Assembly: GCA_947074145.1 (NCBI GenBank) | Contig: CAMTOJ010000012.1 | Span: 1-64,000, forward strand | Origin: an uncultured Bacteroidales bacterium | GTDB lineage: Bacteria > Bacteroidota > Bacteroidia > Bacteroidales > JAUNSR01 | DNA: 64,000 bases | Direction: 5' to 3' | Shown here: piece by piece, positions 55,070-64,000 of the stretch | Layout: the number at the start of each line of letters is the position of its first letter | Numbering within the stretch: position 1 is the first letter of the stretch | Made by a program: the position numbers and the translations under genes | Notes under the pieces: model-generated | Told to the model about the DNA's origin: nothing | What the model saw: the letters and a program-made list of their open reading frames with translations, nothing else | Database searches by the model: none

Positions 55070-55483
55070 ATGATTTTTCAAACAGAATTCTCGCTTAAAG
55101 CTCGCACTCGTGGTTTTCATCTTATAACAGATGAAATCTTAAGAAAAATAGAAAAGTTTCCCGCAACAGGTATCGTTAATATATTTATTAAGCACAGCTC
55201 TGCTGCTCTTTCAATCAATGAAAATGCCGATCCTTCAGTAAGAGAAGATATGGAGGCTATCTTCAATCGTCTGATTAAGGAACGCGAACCATACTACCGA
55301 CATAATTACGAGGGAGACGACGATATGCCGGCACATGCCAAAACATCGATTATCGGTCCATCAATCTCTATCCCTATTACTAATCATAAATTAAACATGG
55401 GTATTTGGCAAGGAATATATCTATGTGAGTTCCGTGATTATGGAGGTGCCCGAAAAATTGTGATTACAGTAATGGGTGAATAA
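55070..55483 (+). CDS. YjbQ/UPF0047 family protein
   Basis: A 137-residue protein of the secondary thiamine-phosphate synthase-like family. It has NIFIKHSSAALSINENADPSVREDME and HNYEGDDDMPAHAKTSIIGPSISIPI, with the conserved histidines, and ends GGARKIVITVMGE. Members show weak thiamine-phosphate synthase activity when overexpressed; the natural role is unsettled. It stands alone, divergent from the exonuclease. Confidence 0.92.
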   Translation: MIFQTEFSLKARTRGFHLITDEILRKIEKFPATGIVNIFIKHSSAALSINENADPSVREDMEAIFNRLIKEREPYYRHNYEGDDDMPAHAKTSIIGPSISIPITNHKLNMGIWQGIYLCEFRDYGGARKIVITVMGE

Positions 55484-55490
55484 AATTATT

Positions 55491-55542
55491 AAAAAGTAAA
55501 AAAGGATCTTTCCCATACAAGAAAGATCCTTTTTTACTTTTT
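55491..55542. terminator. Bidirectional terminator
   Basis: AAAAAGTAAAAAAGGATCTTT and AAAGATCCTTTTTTACTTTTT form a perfect 21-bp stem with a 10-base loop, between YjbQ and the converging surface-protein cassette. Confidence 0.92.
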
Positions 55543-55551
55543 ATTCTAAAT

Positions 55552-58500
55552 TTATTTGAAAACTTTAATCGTTTTGTTTCCTACTTTAATGAAATAAATC
55601 CCATGTTCAATATTTATTGTCTCAATTCTATTTTGTCCGCTATAAATTTGTTGACTAATTACCAATTCTCCGCTTAAACTATAGATATAAATCATTGTCG
55701 TTTCATGACTATTTATAAATATATAATCTTTGAAAGGATTAGGATAAGCGCTTAAATTTAGCTCAACATCATCTGTTCCGGTAATTGTTGATTCGGTATA
55801 TTTTACAAAAAGATTAGAGTCTTTTTCAACTTCATAAATTTCTTCTCCATCTATCGATTCTAACCAAACAGCCATATATCCATCAATATTCATCACAGGA
55901 AGAACTCCATTTGTAAAAATTGTAGAAGATTCTTGAATCAAATTATCAGAATAATCCACCTTAAAAACCTTCTCACCTTTTAATACAGGATACTTTTCAT
56001 TATTTAAGTCCTGACCGAAAGCTTCACCAAGTTTCCATGCAATTTCCCCTAATTCAAGAGTTTCATTATTTACGATTGTCTGCTTATCTTCACTATCATC
56101 CCCATATCCTGTTTCCGATTTAATACTATAACAGTTCTCATTCACAGAAATAGATATATTACCGTTTATTGCATTTCCGATGTAAGTCTGACTATTCGTA
56201 ATAATATTACCTATATTCAAAGCATTCTGAATTGACCCATCAGCTGATGTATTAGATGATATGCCTGCAACATAATTTGTATTACCTTTAATATTTCCTG
56301 TATTTATAACATTCGAAATTTTGGTAGCTGCAGCACTACCAACTATACCCCCAACATTATTAGAAGAACTTGTTATATTTCCGCTATTTGAAGCGATATC
56401 AATAATACTTGTTGTTCCTGTCTGTATTTGCCCGGCAATACCTCCTATTGTTGACGAAGTAGCTGTTATATTTCCCTTGTTATGGCAATTGATAATTGTA
56501 GTATTATTATTTATATATCCGAATAACCCGGCTGTATATTGAGCTCCTGAAACATTCACTTCATTAATACAATTTTCAAATTTTGTTGCACCGTTTACAT
56601 AACCTACAAGTCCGGCTGTATAATTCTTAGTATTAATAATATCTCCTTCAACTGTTATATTCTTTATATTTCCTTCATTCATATAACCGAACAAAGCCTG
56701 ATAAGTAGCATTTGCATTAATATATAATCCTTCAATTCTGTATCCGAAGCCATCAAATGTTCCACCGTAACGATTCGAAGAAGTACTATTACCAATCGGT
56801 GTCCATTCAAAATTCCCCAGATCAATATCTGAAGTAAGAATTGCGCAAGCCAAGCGATTTCCACTATTCACATGAATTGCAAACCATGCAAGCTCACTTG
56901 CTTTTGAAATTTTATAGTAATCAACCAGTCCATTATAAATACCACCTGTTTCATCAGACTCTTCCTGCGAAACAATCATAGGTTCAGAGATAGATATTCC
57001 ATCCCATAGATTTTCATCACCGGGTTTCAAATCTATTTTAAAGCTCTGCACTTCCTGACCATCTGATAATACATAAAAACTATTTCGGTAAATACTATAT
57101 CCATCACTTTTTACATAAACATCATACTTCCCATATTGAACAATAGATTGAAAATTATCATCAATCTCAATCTCTTCTCCATCTTTATTTTTCACAATAA
57201 ACTCGGCTCCGGCCGGAACACCTTCAAAAACAACTTTGAAATATTTTGTTGTAACAACACTAATTGAGATATCCGGTAAAGCACCAAAATAATTATGACG
57301 TGAAAGAGCTGTAAAATTAGCTCCAATTCCATGTAAGGGATTCACCTCTCTATGCGCACCAAATTCTGAACCATATCCTTTCATTTGAAGTGCTCCTTTT
57401 TTCAAATCAATTGTTTTCTCAACATTCCACTCTTTTTCAACCTTTGATTTAATAATCTGTATTTCAGGAGAACCTGCAAATTTATATTGGCTCGAGCTTG
57501 AAATCAGAGATGAGCCATTTGGTGTATCATTATAAACAATGGATGTTGACATATTATATATTCCTGCCAGTTTATTTGCAGGACTGAATAAACCATAAAA
57601 CTGCACCTGATACTCATCTCCCGGCTGAAGGGTAAATCCGGGATTTGAAACATTCTCTATTTCATATTTGACCGGTTTTGCTGTTGCCACCTGATATTCT
57701 GATGCTCCTGTTTCTGATGTAAGTTTTATTATGTTTCGCCCCAAAGTCAATAAGACAGTATAACTACCATCTGCATTTTGTTCTATATTTTTGAACCCTT
57801 CATATTTAGAAATATTGACATCCATTTGAGGATTTGCAATACTTACATTAGATACACCCTCGGGTGTAAATGTATATTCATATCCGTTAAGTTCACTCAG
57901 ATAATAGAACACATCATGCTCTGAATCAATAGAAAGATTAGTATCCGGCACCCTATTATCTTGAGGTATAAACATATTTCTTTTTATTGATTCTTCATTA
58001 TCTTGATCAACAGTCAACACAAATGTACCTGTATTCTCTGGCCATATGGCGCTCCATAAATTACCTCCATAAAAAGATGCAGGTATTTCTGTTGTTGTTG
58101 AATTGTAAATCTGAAGGTTAATAGCATCATAAGTAACCTGCACTATTACGCTTCCCTTTCCTTTTGCCGTAATTAACCCATTCTTATCAATCTCTACTAT
58201 ATCACTACATGGATCTCCATTCATATCTATTATAGTATAATGATAATCGGGCTCAATAAAATAGTTACCGACAGTATTATTTGTCAATTGCCAGCTTCGT
58301 AAATTCAACAATTGATAACTGTCCCCCTTTTTCATCTTCAATTCACCCTCCCTATTGACATTCAAAAGAATATCCGCAACATTTGTAGCGGTATTAGATG
58401 TTACATCATAATCTATAAATTTAGGAGTTCTAAGATTCAGCATCTCTTCACTAATTACCATTGGTGATATATTCGTAGTCATTGTAAAAATTCCACCATT

Positions 58501-59256
58501 AGTTAATTTTCCCGGCTGAGACACCTTGAAATTATATGTACAAGCTGACCCAAGAGTAAAAATATACTCCTTTTTATTATCTTTTATAATCGAATCCTTT
58601 GGTGAAATTTCAGTGAAAGGAGCATAATGCATACTACCTGATTTCAACCCTACAAACAAGTGTGCCTCTGTTGGCACTGTTATGGAATATTCTCGTTCCA
58701 TTGGTATAACGAAACCTGCATTTAAACTTGTAGCTGTTACTGTATTACAATTATTGAAAGAACTCATATATCCTTCCTTAACTTTCTCTTCGCTTTGATC
58801 GGATGTTATTCTAAAACTATCCCCAAGGTTAATCAAAAAAGTTTCTCTTCCGGCTGTTGTTGACTCACCTGTTGTGATAACTCGAACCTTCCCCTCATTG
58901 CTATTTGCATTAATTGTGAGAAAATAATCCTGATTCATTATCCACCCGCTATTAGATATCCAAGTAGTGATTGTACTAATACTGAAAGTCTGTGAAGACT
59001 CTTCCGTTATTTCTATCTCCAAAGTACCATTAGAAACTCCATTTGTATTAAACCCCGTAACAATATACTCTCCTGGTTCTGTTTCAAAATTATAACTATA
59101 TGTAACAGCAGAGCCTACCTCTACTTTTTCATTTGTAGTCTTATTAATCAGCTCCATTGTCCGACTGATTGAATTCATCTTTATCGTGACATCGACAGCC
59201 AGCATATTTATCGTATTTATAACTACGATAAATATGGCTAAGTAAAATTTTCTCAT
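55552..59256 (-). CDS. Large secreted GLUG-repeat surface protein with T9SS sorting domain
   Basis: A 1234-residue extracellular protein. Signal peptide MRKFYLAIFIVVINTINMLAVD; residues about 25-820 are beta-rich and contain a Big_2-like piece (EIDKNGLITAKGKGSVIVQVTYD) and a carboxypeptidase-regulatory-like piece (FIVKNKDGEEIEIDDNFQSIVQYGKYDVYVKSDGYSIY). Residues about 824-1042 hold six GLUG-type repeats (GGIAGQI, GGIVGSA, AGLFGYI). The last 75 are a T9SS type A sorting domain (AYPNPFKDYIF ... IYFIKVGNKTIKVFK). GLUG repeats occur in adhesins and peptidases; no catalytic motif is visible. Last gene of the cassette. Confidence 0.87.
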   Translation of the reverse strand: MRKFYLAIFIVVINTINMLAVDVTIKMNSISRTMELINKTTNEKVEVGSAVTYSYNFETEPGEYIVTGFNTNGVSNGTLEIEITEESSQTFSISTITTWISNSGWIMNQDYFLTINANSNEGKVRVITTGESTTAGRETFLINLGDSFRITSDQSEEKVKEGYMSSFNNCNTVTATSLNAGFVIPMEREYSITVPTEAHLFVGLKSGSMHYAPFTEISPKDSIIKDNKKEYIFTLGSACTYNFKVSQPGKLTNGGIFTMTTNISPMVISEEMLNLRTPKFIDYDVTSNTATNVADILLNVNREGELKMKKGDSYQLLNLRSWQLTNNTVGNYFIEPDYHYTIIDMNGDPCSDIVEIDKNGLITAKGKGSVIVQVTYDAINLQIYNSTTTEIPASFYGGNLWSAIWPENTGTFVLTVDQDNEESIKRNMFIPQDNRVPDTNLSIDSEHDVFYYLSELNGYEYTFTPEGVSNVSIANPQMDVNISKYEGFKNIEQNADGSYTVLLTLGRNIIKLTSETGASEYQVATAKPVKYEIENVSNPGFTLQPGDEYQVQFYGLFSPANKLAGIYNMSTSIVYNDTPNGSSLISSSSQYKFAGSPEIQIIKSKVEKEWNVEKTIDLKKGALQMKGYGSEFGAHREVNPLHGIGANFTALSRHNYFGALPDISISVVTTKYFKVVFEGVPAGAEFIVKNKDGEEIEIDDNFQSIVQYGKYDVYVKSDGYSIYRNSFYVLSDGQEVQSFKIDLKPGDENLWDGISISEPMIVSQEESDETGGIYNGLVDYYKISKASELAWFAIHVNSGNRLACAILTSDIDLGNFEWTPIGNSTSSNRYGGTFDGFGYRIEGLYINANATYQALFGYMNEGNIKNITVEGDIINTKNYTAGLVGYVNGATKFENCINEVNVSGAQYTAGLFGYINNNTTIINCHNKGNITATSSTIGGIAGQIQTGTTSIIDIASNSGNITSSSNNVGGIVGSAAATKISNVINTGNIKGNTNYVAGISSNTSADGSIQNALNIGNIITNSQTYIGNAINGNISISVNENCYSIKSETGYGDDSEDKQTIVNNETLELGEIAWKLGEAFGQDLNNEKYPVLKGEKVFKVDYSDNLIQESSTIFTNGVLPVMNIDGYMAVWLESIDGEEIYEVEKDSNLFVKYTESTITGTDDVELNLSAYPNPFKDYIFINSHETTMIYIYSLSGELVISQQIYSGQNRIETINIEHGIYFIKVGNKTIKVFK
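56130..56785 (-). repeat. GLUG-repeat coding region
   Basis: About six units of 28-31 residues, each with an N-C-x-N-x-GNI strand and a GG(I/L)xG turn, forming a predicted right-handed beta-helix. Units are diverged, so the DNA is not a simple tandem repeat. Confidence 0.7.
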
Positions 59257-59267
59257 TTGCTAAATTC

Positions 59268-60920
59268 TTATTTGATTATTGATTTTGTTGTTACACCTAT
59301 TTTAATGATATAGAACCCACGAGGTAAATCTGAAATATTTATCTCACTCATTCCCTTTTCAAGTTTTTCAGTACGAATCACTTTCCCTGAACTTGAATAA
59401 ATAACCAATTCATCCTCCTGATATTCAGTTTCAATTATAATAGAGTTTGCATCTTTTAGATATTTGAAACTTATTATTTCTTTATGATTATCGTTTTCCA
59501 AATCTGTGATATTAGATGATTGTGTTTTAATATATGCAGCTGTTTTTTCTGATCTGTTTCCTGCATAATCAACAGCTTCAATCTCTACAAGATATTCTGT
59601 ACCTGATTCCAAACCTGTTAATGTATACTCGGTAGTAGAAACCCTTTTCTGTTTCTCTCCATTGAGATAGATATTATACTCTTTTACTCCGAAATTATCA
59701 GAAGATACATCCCATGTTAAAGTAATCGTGTATAAAGAAGTTTCACCTTCAAGGTTCATTGGCTTAGTTGGAGCTGTAATATCTGTTGTGTTTATAGTTA
59801 TAGATGCTCTATCAGATATCTCTCCATCGATTGCTATTGCCTCAATTCCCAACAGATATTCAGTAAATGGTTTAAGATCTTCTATTAAATATTCGGTTAC
59901 ATTTTCAACTCTCATTAATAATTCTTCATTCACATAAATGTTATAACCCGATATTACTATATCAGAAACAGCTTCATTCCATGAAAAAAGGATATTAGAT
60001 TCTGAAGCCTCTGCTATTAGCCCCGTGGGGCGATTAGGTATAATAGATTGTTGAACCTCTTTTACCTGCAACTTATCCATACAAAAATAAACGGCCGTAT
60101 TAGGTCCAAGCCCGTCAAATTCACTTACATCTGTCGATTCCATTGTAAAGTATATCCCCGTAACTGCACCAAGAGAAGAAAGATCTACCCATTGCCAATC
60201 AGGACTTTGTTTCAATTCACCATCTTTAAACTCGGCAAGAATATGATCAACCTTAATACCTATATCCTTTCCATCCTCATTAAATCCGTGAATCGTTAGT
60301 TTAAACATATCTCCTTCCTTTTTAAAAGGTGATGCAAACCCGTCACCATAAAGAGTTCCATAATAAGGCCAAGGGTGATTACAGATATAAATACCTTGGG
60401 GTTTGTACATCTTTCCGTTATTAAATCTAACCTGTAAACAAGGATCGCCACCCATAAACAGTTCCATCCAATAGCCCCAATTTGCCACCAGGTAAGGAAT
60501 ACCGGCCTGGGCTATTACTTTCCCGTTTTCATCCATCATCACATTCCCCAGTTCATCGGTTTTTATTCCGCCTCCTGCCATACATCCCCACTGATTGGAT
60601 ATCCATCCATCGGAACTATCAAGCATTCCATAGTTTTTCGTATCTCCACTTGTACAATATGTAAATCCATCCCAGTAATAGCCCTCCGAACTGTCTTCTT
60701 CACTGAAGCTTCCGGGATTATGTGTTAGCGAAAAAAAATCAAAATCAATTTTTCTGAACTTCTTTGATCCATTATAAGTTTCAACCCAATGACCTTTATC
60801 TTGAAAAACATCAAATTTAACAGGGTTAGTAGGTTTCTGTAAATCAAGTGTGATAATATCATCTGCATTTGCTTTAAAAAAGAGAGATGCAGCAAAAAGA
60901 AAAAGTAATGTTTTTTTCAT
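59268..60920 (-). CDS. DUF4465-fibronectin III surface protein with T9SS sorting domain
   Basis: A 550-residue extracellular protein. Signal peptide MKKTLLFLFAASLFFKANAD; DUF4465 domain at about 20-290 (EEDSSEGYYWDGFTYC ... VYFCMDKLQVKEVQQ); two fibronectin type III modules (PTGLIAEASESNILFSWNEAV; PTKPMNLEGETSLYTITLTWDVS, about 300-480); and a T9SS type A C-terminal domain (ELVIYSSSGKVIRTEKLEKG ... RGFYIIKIG). DUF4465 proteins are, from memory, common beside BtuG/BtuB-like cobalamin genes in Bacteroidetes. The ligand is not shown by sequence. Gap to the next gene 11 bp. Confidence 0.88.
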   Translation of the reverse strand: MKKTLLFLFAASLFFKANADDIITLDLQKPTNPVKFDVFQDKGHWVETYNGSKKFRKIDFDFFSLTHNPGSFSEEDSSEGYYWDGFTYCTSGDTKNYGMLDSSDGWISNQWGCMAGGGIKTDELGNVMMDENGKVIAQAGIPYLVANWGYWMELFMGGDPCLQVRFNNGKMYKPQGIYICNHPWPYYGTLYGDGFASPFKKEGDMFKLTIHGFNEDGKDIGIKVDHILAEFKDGELKQSPDWQWVDLSSLGAVTGIYFTMESTDVSEFDGLGPNTAVYFCMDKLQVKEVQQSIIPNRPTGLIAEASESNILFSWNEAVSDIVISGYNIYVNEELLMRVENVTEYLIEDLKPFTEYLLGIEAIAIDGEISDRASITINTTDITAPTKPMNLEGETSLYTITLTWDVSSDNFGVKEYNIYLNGEKQKRVSTTEYTLTGLESGTEYLVEIEAVDYAGNRSEKTAAYIKTQSSNITDLENDNHKEIISFKYLKDANSIIIETEYQEDELVIYSSSGKVIRTEKLEKGMSEINISDLPRGFYIIKIGVTTKSIIK

Positions 60921-60930
60921 ATTCGTATTA

Positions 60931-62118
60931 TTATTGTTTTATAAATCTTATTATTTCATCTCCCGAAATCAATATATAGATCCCTTTATTCATAAATCCA
61001 CACTCGATTTCCGAAGTCCCTGCCATTACATTAGTGTTAATCATCAATAACCCACACGATGAATAAACATAAATATCTCTTTCTTCAGAAGATGTCAAGA
61101 TCAATTTATCGGTTACAGAACTTCGTAAAACAGAGATCACCGATCTATTTTTCTCTTCTATTATATTATTTGGTTCTTTTTTCAAAAGATGCAAATCTTG
61201 TGCGCCAACAATTTCGGTTGATGTTTCACCCAACCCTCCACAATATTGATTTACTCCTGTATAAACCTTTATAAAGTGAACTCCCGGTAATTCTACCGAA
61301 TCTCCATTTTTATCGACAGCCCATTCAATCTTGAAATTCGATCGTTCGTCAAAATTGGGATGATTATCAGCATATCCCCAGGCATAAGAATATAATACAT
61401 AATATGAACCCTCTCCGCTCTCATCAATATAATTGTCAGCCAATTTTGTACCCTCAAATGTTATCTCCTCATCATCAATCCAAAGTGGATAATATGATTG
61501 ATTATGAAAAATATTACGAGCCATATAACCGTTCTTTCCCTGATTTGATTCCCATCGTATATATGTTGTATCATTCAAAAAAGGATAACTATTATCAGGA
61601 GTTTTTATCTTATTCTCATCAGGTTTGTAATAAGTAATCTTATAATTATGAATGGTTTGAGAACTTCTATATTCACTTCCTGCAAGTTCGTACCATTCAT
61701 CATCAGGTTTTCCGTTTCCATTGGCATCATAAGAGACCATCACAATCCCCGGTTCGCAACTTCCTCCGCCGGAATGAGCATCAGCATTCGGATTAGTATT
61801 TGCATAAAACGCATTTCCCAATATCTTAAAATCGTATTCCCCTTTTACATTTTCCACCATATGATCGAAACCGAAAGTGATATAACCGCCATAACCACCC
61901 AAAGAAACAATTACACCGGTTTCACCCTCTATCGATTCCTCAGCCTTTAGCCTCATATCATTTTTTGTATCGCCCTGTTCATACAAAGGAAGTTTATTGA
62001 CAAACTGCCCCGGAGCAGGCATATACTCATACACTTTATAGATATATGGAGATTGCGAATATGCATCAAAACCAACTCCACATATCACTAACAACAGACC
62101 TCTTGCTAACAATTTCAT
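60931..62118 (-). CDS. Conserved cell-surface protein with T9SS sorting domain
   Basis: A 395-residue protein with signal peptide MKLLARGLLLVICGVGFDAYSQ. The family core is clear: YMPAPGQFVNKLP near the start, VSLGGYGGYITFGFDHMV, GGGSCEPGIVMVSYDANGNGKPDDEWYELAGSEY with a possible Ca-binding Asp/Asn loop, and VHFIKVYTGVNQYCGGLGETSTEIVGAQDLHLL. The last 70 residues form a T9SS-like domain (YVYSSCGLLMINTNVMAGTSEIE ... GIYILISGDE). It is usually listed as a cell surface protein in BtuG-like loci; no function is known. A paralogue lies at the right window edge. Confidence 0.82.
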   Translation of the reverse strand: MKLLARGLLLVICGVGFDAYSQSPYIYKVYEYMPAPGQFVNKLPLYEQGDTKNDMRLKAEESIEGETGVIVSLGGYGGYITFGFDHMVENVKGEYDFKILGNAFYANTNPNADAHSGGGSCEPGIVMVSYDANGNGKPDDEWYELAGSEYRSSQTIHNYKITYYKPDENKIKTPDNSYPFLNDTTYIRWESNQGKNGYMARNIFHNQSYYPLWIDDEEITFEGTKLADNYIDESGEGSYYVLYSYAWGYADNHPNFDERSNFKIEWAVDKNGDSVELPGVHFIKVYTGVNQYCGGLGETSTEIVGAQDLHLLKKEPNNIIEEKNRSVISVLRSSVTDKLILTSSEERDIYVYSSCGLLMINTNVMAGTSEIECGFMNKGIYILISGDEIIRFIKQ

Positions 62119-62129
62119 ATTGAATTATT

Positions 62130-63872
62130 TTATAATATTATTTTATAATTATCCGATCCAGCCCTCACTAAATAGCACTTTCCTCTATTCAGATTTTTGA
62201 AACTATGATCTTCATCAGTTATCAGTCTTTCTATAAGATTTCCTGAGAGGTCATAAAGAGATATCTCAACTGGCGAACATATTCCTTCTATTTTGATCTG
62301 ATTATTAACACCTATAACCCTTATATTCAAATTATTACTCTCATCAATCCCTGTTTCAGAATTAACAATCACATTCAACACCTTATCCTCATACTTTCCA
62401 TTTGAATTAAATCGTACAGTAATAGTGATATTATCTTTTATTAAATCTTCACCGGCAGATAATTTCAACTCATCATTTTCAATTCTTGCGTTGATTTTCT
62501 TATTACTAATGCCCACTATCCTCTTTGTTATAGCTGCATCATTATTATCCTTATCTTTTGCCATCGAGGAAAGATCAATGGAAACCTCCTCATTTGTCGA
62601 TAAGAAAACCTGGTTAAAATCATCAATTTCAGGAGAATGGATATCCGGAAAAATAAATAATGAAGGAAACCAGTATCTCTTTATCGGCTCATATTGTTTA
62701 AGCTTGTTCCCTTCATTATCGAGCTGATAGAAAAAATATGATTGATTGACATTATCTATAAATAGCGAAGCATAAATCTTATCATCATACGGATTAATTC
62801 TTATGGCACATCCTAAGAAATAGCGACTCTCCTTACTACTATCATAAATCGTTGTAAATGTTTCGGTATCTATATCATACATAAACATTGTCGATGTTGT
62901 AAACCAGCTCCATTTGTTAGAGTTATAGGTGAAATACAATCTATTTTGATTAAATGATGCACATAGCGAACCCGCACTCCAGGCATACCATGACTGATTA
63001 ATACCATACTCTTGAGGCATCTCTATGATCTTTGTTTCAAGAGTTTTTGGATCGATTTTTAATAATTGATCCCCCTGCCACATCTCTCCCGTAGATCCGA
63101 ATACTCCATAAGGAAAATTCTGATACGACATATTCGAATTTCTACCTACCCAGATACATCCATCCTTACTTTGCGTCATTGTACTGAAACAACCCTCTAT
63201 TATAGTTTCTATTTTATCTTTTTCAGGATTTATTACAAGCACGCCTTTATCCTGCTGAATAGCGAAAACATAATCATGGCTACGAATCATCATTCCTATC
63301 TGATTACGGTATAAAGGACCCAATCCGTCAGATTTATCTTCCTTTCCTGTTACTAAAGGATTTTCCGAACCTTCAATCCTTCCTTTTATCTCATACGAAT
63401 TAAGATCCATAATAAAGATCCCATTGGATGTACCCAGATAACCCTTATCCTCTCTTACCCCCACAAAGCTCCTGCCATCAGCAGCCGATTTACCATTGAG
63501 TTCATATATCACAGGTATAGTTTTCTTAATTTTCATAGTTGACGCATCTGCGACAACTATTCTGCCACCTGTCAGTTTTCCCTCTGCTTTATCCTGATCC
63601 TGCTTGGAAATGATATAAATATTATCTCCATATATAGCTCCATATTGTGCAGTACAACCTAATGACAGATTTCCATTATCATTATTATTCTGTACTATCA
63701 GATAATCGAATTCACTTGTTTGGGTATTAAGAAAATTGATTGTACTGTTATTATTTCCAAACCGATCTTCGTTCAAAACAAAAACTCCCGTTTCATATTT
63801 TAACTGCGCTTCGACATTAGATAAACCGGTTACAGCTATCAATGACCATATCAATAATTTTTCTAATCTCAT
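62130..63872 (-). CDS. YncE/DUF5074-type beta-propeller surface protein, BtuG-like, with T9SS domain
   Basis: A 580-residue protein. Signal peptide MRLEKLLIWSLIAVTGLSNVEAQ; a propeller of about 400 residues begins ETGVFVLNEDRFGNNNSTINFLN, the DUF5074 opening, with blades such as GRIVVADASTMKIKKTIPVI, NGIFIMDLNSYEIKGRIEG and GVLVINPEKDKIETIIEG. A short Ig-like linker and a T9SS-like ending (VEISLYDLSGNLIERL ... RAGSDNYKIIL) follow. BtuG2 of B. thetaiotaomicron, a lipoprotein propeller, binds cobalamin very tightly. Here there is no lipobox and T9SS attachment is expected. Cobalamin as ligand is inferred only from the family. Confidence 0.8.
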   Translation of the reverse strand: MRLEKLLIWSLIAVTGLSNVEAQLKYETGVFVLNEDRFGNNNSTINFLNTQTSEFDYLIVQNNNDNGNLSLGCTAQYGAIYGDNIYIISKQDQDKAEGKLTGGRIVVADASTMKIKKTIPVIYELNGKSAADGRSFVGVREDKGYLGTSNGIFIMDLNSYEIKGRIEGSENPLVTGKEDKSDGLGPLYRNQIGMMIRSHDYVFAIQQDKGVLVINPEKDKIETIIEGCFSTMTQSKDGCIWVGRNSNMSYQNFPYGVFGSTGEMWQGDQLLKIDPKTLETKIIEMPQEYGINQSWYAWSAGSLCASFNQNRLYFTYNSNKWSWFTTSTMFMYDIDTETFTTIYDSSKESRYFLGCAIRINPYDDKIYASLFIDNVNQSYFFYQLDNEGNKLKQYEPIKRYWFPSLFIFPDIHSPEIDDFNQVFLSTNEEVSIDLSSMAKDKDNNDAAITKRIVGISNKKINARIENDELKLSAGEDLIKDNITITVRFNSNGKYEDKVLNVIVNSETGIDESNNLNIRVIGVNNQIKIEGICSPVEISLYDLSGNLIERLITDEDHSFKNLNRGKCYLVRAGSDNYKIIL

Positions 63873-63876
63873 TTCT

Positions 63877-64000
63877 TTAAAGAATTGGTATATAATTTTT
63901 AAAATCCTCTACATGCAGATCTTCCGCTCTTGACAATTCGGTAGATGTTTCACCTAACCAGCCACATTGTTGATTTACACCGGTATAAACTCTTATAAAA
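63877..64000 (-). CDS. 3' end of a second cell-surface protein (paralogue)
   Basis: The minus strand is open to the right edge and reads FIRVYTGVNQQCGWLGETST ... ELSRAEDLHVEDF and ends at a TAA (63877-63879), four bases before the propeller start. It matches residues about 290-325 of the protein at 60931-62118 (IKVYTGVNQYCGGLGETSTE). Unlike that protein it stops shortly after the DLH block and has no T9SS domain, so it must be anchored differently, for example as a lipoprotein. Confidence 0.8.
   Translation of the reverse strand, partial: FIRVYTGVNQQCGWLGETSTELSRAEDLHVEDFKNYIPIL

Follow-up and report, generated by a model that had tools for sequence, protein, structure and literature searches.

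A cobalamin riboswitch operon of an uncultured Bacteroidales bacterium pairs a lipoprotein BtuB-BtuG core with accessory proteins predicted to be type IX secretion cargo

Introduction

The closest described relative of the locus reported here is cobamide operon 1 of Bacteroides thetaiotaomicron (btuK1-btuK2-btuH1-btuB1-btuGH-btuJ1; PMC12751083, PMC10404256), which has a cobalamin riboswitch and encodes BtuB, lipidated BtuG, and BtuK-, BtuH- and BtuJ-type accessory proteins. All of these accessory proteins are lipoproteins, and in the literature that we found, the accessory B12 binders of Bacteroides are described as lipoproteins only. In BtuG, the lipid anchor and linker lie against BtuB and could serve as a lid hinge; BtuH does not remain in complex with the transporter (PMC10404256). 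DUF4465 is the family of BtuJ, and eight diverse members of it bind B12 (PMC13398666). Here, we analyze a 64,000-nucleotide stretch (the window), positions 1 to 64,000 of contig CAMTOJ010000012.1 (contig C12), from the 3.71-Mb draft genome of an uncultured Bacteroidales bacterium. Its right-hand end carries a cassette of four genes related to this operon. The operon to which the cassette belongs very probably combines a core of BtuB and lipidated BtuG, and a lipidated BtuH, with four accessory capture proteins that are exported by the type IX secretion system (T9SS) and feed BtuB-BtuG.

Results

The four genes were confirmed on the minus strand at the positions listed in Table 1 and are separated by 11, 10, and 11 bp, matching the gaps of 10 to 11 bp given in an earlier note made from the letters of the window. 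No cobalamin riboswitch was found inside the 64-kb window. The contig continues to position 72044, and beyond the window we found, on the same strand as the cassette and with intergenic gaps of at most 43 bp, a lipidated btuH, a lipidated btuG, btuB, and a cobalamin riboswitch, which places the upstream limit of the operon at contig position 68745. The earlier note had predicted a BtuB-like receptor and possibly a cobalamin riboswitch to the right of the window, and had named a TonB-dependent receptor or riboswitch upstream of the cassette as part of a test beforehand; both were present when the rest of the contig was read. The best PDB match of the receptor is BtuB1 of B. thetaiotaomicron in structure 8blw (E value of 3e-125), and the lipidated BtuG matches BtuG1 in the same structure (E value of 3e-40). 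The four window genes are thus most simply read as the 3' end of a seven-gene, ~13-kb cobamide-uptake operon under riboswitch control, and the spacing of the genes suggests that all seven share a single transcript. A UPF0047 (YjbQ-type) gene (window 55070-55483, plus strand) points toward the end of the operon, and the bidirectional terminator serves both.

Table 1. Features of the operon. Positions are those of contig C12, of which the window is 1 to 64,000.
Feature	Position	Strand	Description
Intrinsic terminator	55495..55538	-	Strong, 20-bp stem, after the last gene of the operon, which it closes
GLUGN protein, 1234 aa	55552..59256	-	Signal peptide I, GLUGN module aa 21-780, degenerate GLUG repeats, T9SS tail
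BtuJ-like protein, 550 aa	59268..60920	-	DUF4465, two Fn3 domains, T9SS tail
BtuH-like protein, 395 aa	60931..62118	-	Signal peptide I, BtuH B12-binding-type domain, T9SS tail
BtuK-like protein, 580 aa	62130..63872	-	DUF5074 7-bladed propeller, Ig-like domain, weak T9SS-type tail
Lipidated btuH	63877-65160	-	Lipobox LIGC; only the 3' end (63877..64000) inside the window
Lipidated btuG	65109-66296	-	Lipobox LIGC; adjoins btuB
btuB	66340-68349	-	TonB-dependent receptor, outside the window
Cobalamin riboswitch RF00174	68540-68745	-	107 bits against a gathering score of 31.5

The resemblance to accessory genes of cobalamin-capture loci that the earlier note had proposed was confirmed, three of the four proteins being relatives of proven B12 binders. 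By sequence, the "cell-surface protein" of that note is BtuH-like: its domain matches the H domain of BtuG1 (E value of 8e-83) and BtuH2 (E value of 5e-46), and six of the eight B12-contact positions listed for BtuH2 (PMC8941943) are kept (Q333, N399, F401, H476, Y510, and L578). It shares with BtuH2 (7BIZ) a homologous C-terminal B12-binding domain but lacks the PKD domains and the lipobox and ends in a T9SS-type tail. The same operon encodes, two genes upstream, the lipidated BtuH, of which this protein is a close paralog. A lipobox and an additional N-terminal domain are found in the lipidated copy, which is tailless; the other copy has signal peptide I instead, lacks the additional domain, and ends in a tail of 80 residues. 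Judged by the BtuH protein, which is 72% identical, the closest named relative is the draft genome of a Paludibacter sp.

The DUF4465 protein can likewise be classed as BtuJ-like. It contains the Pfam domain (PF14717, E value of 2e-28) together with two Fn3 domains, matches BtuJ1 at an E value of 5e-10, and keeps the HI binding-loop residues N241, T242, and Y245 of BtuJ1. It thus resembles the BtuJ/DUF4465 family (9FCT, PMC13398666) in having a PF14717 domain with the HI-loop motif N-T-x-x-Y; the Fn3 domains and the T9SS tail set it apart, from the B. thetaiotaomicron operon 1 protein as well.

The propeller encoded by the first gene of the cassette has a full DUF5074 domain (PF16819, E value of 4e-114), and its sequence profile matches the BtuK1 structure 9s6c at an E value of 2e-37. 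An AlphaFold2 model (mean predicted local distance difference test score, pLDDT, of 77.6) shows the propeller, an immunoglobulin (Ig)-like domain, and a C-terminal beta-sandwich; its top fold match is 9S6C, titled "B12 Binding protein - BtuK1," followed by BtuG2 with cyanocobalamin. By sequence profile and predicted fold, the protein is therefore closest to BtuK1 and BtuK-like. BtuK1 and BtuG2 (8BMY) have the same 7-bladed DUF5074/YncE-like propeller at ~18% identity, whereas the window protein carries the extra Ig-like domain and a T9SS-type tail. In an alignment, lipoprotein relatives extend no further than the propeller, after which these two parts follow in the T9SS forms. The earlier note had treated this propeller as the BtuG equivalent and proposed a comparison with BtuG2, which did come up among the fold matches, second to BtuK1; the equivalence itself did not hold. 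BtuG is a lipoprotein lid encoded beside btuB, whereas the tailed propeller has no lipobox and two genes separate it from btuB; the lipidated BtuG that adjoins btuB fills that role, and we rejected DUF5074 as the BtuG of the locus. An assignment as an XusB-like siderophore propeller was also rejected, since XusB is a DUF4374 protein.

The gene of the GLUG protein was confirmed as the earlier note had it, but GLUG itself is only a subthreshold Pfam match. Most of the protein is a conserved module of ~760 residues, here named GLUGN, which is followed by degenerate GLUG repeats and the tail; operon 1 of B. thetaiotaomicron differs from the present operon in that a GLUGN protein is added here. GLUGN occurs in 2 of 149 genomes searched (source genome included), in both cases within a B12 locus. 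Altogether, 14 B12 loci contain it, as a rule directly adjoining the DUF4465 gene, to which it is fused in several loci. Because the named loci were found via their BtuH gene, the linkage seen in them is not independent evidence, and the unbiased figure is that of the 149-genome search. In locus L113, GLUGN stands alone under its own cobalamin riboswitch (84 bits), and in L131, L132, and L142 a riboswitch directly precedes a BtuH-DUF4465-GLUGN suboperon. Regulation and linkage thus tie GLUGN to B12. Single secreted fusions of DUF4465 with GLUGN and of BtuH with DUF4465 were also observed (L074:337-3492, L107:7674-9722, and the 628-aa proteins of L133, L135, and L165).

We then scored the C termini of the cassette proteins. 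Two of the four reach the cut-off of the Pfam T9SS tail model. A second model, trained on 27 tails from elsewhere in the genome with those of the cassette left out, scored the four proteins at 46.1, 30.6, 23.4, and 10.7 bits, the lowest value belonging to the DUF5074 protein, and gave at most 2.6 bits to the BtuB, BtuG, and lipidated BtuH of the operon and to every other open reading frame of the window. Both tails missed by Pfam, including that of the DUF5074 protein, outscored 1000 of 1000 shuffles of themselves. The claim of the earlier note that all four proteins end in T9SS-type domains is therefore upheld by the held-out model, weakly in one case. Each of the four has signal peptide I, no lipobox, and a tail, and so departs from the rule that accessory binders are surface lipoproteins; the BtuK-, BtuH-, and BtuJ-like proteins differ in this respect from their counterparts in B. 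thetaiotaomicron operon 1. Beside the four tailed proteins, the operon has one lipidated BtuH. SprA (2505 aa) and a full-length PorU sortase (NF033707, 1137 bits) are encoded in the genome, along with about 50 T9SS-tailed proteins. With sorting domains of their own and a translocon and a sortase in the genome, the four are predicted T9SS cargo. What the earlier note had described as a system built for T9SS attachment would be so in its accessory layer only; the core stays a classic lipoprotein BtuB-BtuG.

To place this arrangement, we collected ~100 loci from related and named genomes and scored each B12-locus protein for a lipobox, by pattern rather than with a trained predictor, and for a T9SS tail, with the model from one genome. 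A lipobox was found in 67 BtuG and BtuG-BtuH proteins, and no protein of this group had a tail that scored above threshold. Of the accessory proteins (BtuH, DUF4465, DUF5074, and GLUGN), 77 had just a lipobox and 43 just a tail, 2 ambiguous ones had both, and 64 had neither under these strict rules. Lipobox and tail were almost mutually exclusive (Fisher P = 1.5e-10) and BtuG differed from the accessory proteins (P = 2e-10), both P values being descriptive since related genes are not independent. Signal peptide I is present in many of the 64 proteins with neither, as is a short tail without a Pfam or NCBIfam match; in scans of the bearers, the models of both databases missed the short tails of Paludibacteraceae homologues. 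This tail of ~40 aa (K-x-x-R-N-G-Q-L-x-I-x-R-x-G-x-x-Y-N-x-x-G) occurs in the genomes of L132 and L142, where a short-tail model found 95 and 84 copies, 30 of 30 inspected lying at the extreme C terminus. Both genomes have SprA, and the short sequence probably represents a variant of the T9SS tail.

Lipidated and T9SS forms intermingle in the BtuH tree: with long branches left out, at least four changes of anchor are needed, and the hypothesis that the T9SS form arose only once was rejected (P = 0.0017); the trees are quick ones. The cassette's gene order recurs in many genomes, and in the relatives L077, L080, L131, L132, and L142 the T9SS cassette stands under a cobalamin riboswitch of its own. 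Among the 31 genomes with a BtuH locus, a T9SS-tailed binder was present in 19 of 27 with SprA, compared with none of 4 without it (P = 0.016), and Bacteroides genomes without SprA have lipoprotein binders only. Four exceptions (L119, L125, L152, and L161) have non-lipidated binders with SprA not found; all are drafts, and missing sequence may explain them. Pedobacter, Chitinophaga, and Arenibacter have SprA, yet their binders are lipoproteins, and thus the T9SS permits the swap but does not force it.

The genome encodes MetH and methylmalonyl-CoA mutase, and CbiC, a marker of de novo corrin synthesis, was not found in it; the cell therefore probably depends on imported cobamides. Three further cobalamin riboswitches are present in the genome, two heading btuB-btuG loci on contigs C32 (L041) and C5 (L042), with no T9SS-tailed binders in the annotated stretch, and one preceding a carboxylase operon. 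In the C32 locus, a gene for a 382-aa lipoprotein follows, a BtuF-type binding protein by eye, with no NCBIfam match. The third riboswitch (contig C4:63452-63650, L040:3453-3651, plus strand; 112.8 bits) lies ~185 bp before an operon for biotin carboxylase, biotin carrier, and an MmdA-like carboxyltransferase, an arrangement that suggests B12 control of propionyl-/methylmalonyl-CoA carboxylation.

Discussion

In the operon as we read it, a lipoprotein core is served by T9SS-exported accessory proteins. Scarcity of B12 would release expression through the riboswitch, and the core transporter of the outer membrane would consist of BtuB and BtuG. The products of the last four genes would cross the inner membrane via Sec and the outer membrane via the T9SS, whereupon PorU would cut the tail and fix the proteins to surface lipopolysaccharide, or some may be let go. 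Fixed at the surface, they would catch cobamides and pass them to BtuG and BtuB. Accessory binders would meet the transporter only transiently, and for this reason their anchor could be exchanged, whereas BtuG would keep its lipid because anchor and linker would act as the hinge of the BtuB-BtuG lid. Extended to the phylum, the proposal is that Bacteroidota repeatedly moved the same B12-binding domains from lipid anchors to the T9SS and so gained a second layer of capture, that GLUGN is a new cobamide-handling class, and that BtuG alone is barred from the change by its anchor as lid hinge; this wider version we offer tentatively, with more doubt than confidence.

Several observations weigh against the reading of the cassette as exported cobamide binders beside a lipidated BtuG. 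The T9SS-type tail of the DUF5074 protein is weak, and the B. thetaiotaomicron paralog BtuK2 does not bind B12 (PMC12751083). In L116, a BtuG-BtuH fusion directly after btuB (L116:8810-11044) has signal peptide I, a T9-like tail, and no lipobox, and is the sole apparent case of a BtuG without lipidation. Two aromatic contacts of BtuH2 are replaced in the tailed BtuH (W511 by Tyr and W577 by Gly), and Tyr146 of the DE helix of BtuJ is Trp in the DUF4465 protein. GLUGN has no PDB relative by profile search, and a fold comparison with its structural model (mean pLDDT of 76.6) returned Ig-like domain chains at low template modeling scores and nothing convincing. The two altered aromatic contacts of the tailed BtuH and the lack of a match for GLUGN would fit a cassette that binds another ligand than free B12, such as other tetrapyrroles, precursors like cobinamide, or host corrinoid carriers. 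We regard this as improbable, given that cobalamin riboswitches control both the operon and the separately regulated cassettes and that all three recognizable domains are homologous to proven cobamide binders.

The main rival concerns where the proteins work. T9SS-tailed binders might be mainly released or vesicle-borne, acting as diffusible, siderophore-like B12 traps instead of cell-fixed helpers of BtuB-BtuG, and T9SS cargo can indeed be released in some species. The tails in the window are presumably of the type-A kind, which is normally attached, and the full-length PorU sortase points the same way; the lipidated BtuH retained in the same operon is likewise consistent with cell-bound work. 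On the other side, BtuJ lipoproteins of B. thetaiotaomicron act on vesicles as B12 carriers (PMC12751083). We consider predominantly released or vesicle-borne action unlikely, yet the most serious competitor to attachment at the cell surface. A chance position of four genes for ordinary surface proteins of the T9SS beside a B12 operon is scarcely credible: T9SS tails are common in this genome, but three of the four proteins have B12-binder domains, the genes form a contiguous run with a terminator at its end, and their order recurs in many genomes. Both genomes in which the 149-genome search found GLUGN have it in a B12 locus, and conserved linkage and riboswitch-driven cassettes without btuB are both found.

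An arrangement that joins the T9SS with BtuG, DUF4465, DUF5074, or cobalamin is undescribed in the open-licence literature searched, which is weak evidence of absence, and the same holds, with the same weight, for a repeated swap of lipid anchor for T9SS tail in B12 binders. If our reading is true, GLUGN, for which we found no family or structure, becomes a candidate new component of B12 capture. Vitamin scavenging would then be among the dedicated tasks of the T9SS, and surface binders would carry their anchors as exchangeable modules. The lipidated and T9SS-tailed BtuH proteins encoded in one operon offer a natural side-by-side comparison of anchor and function.

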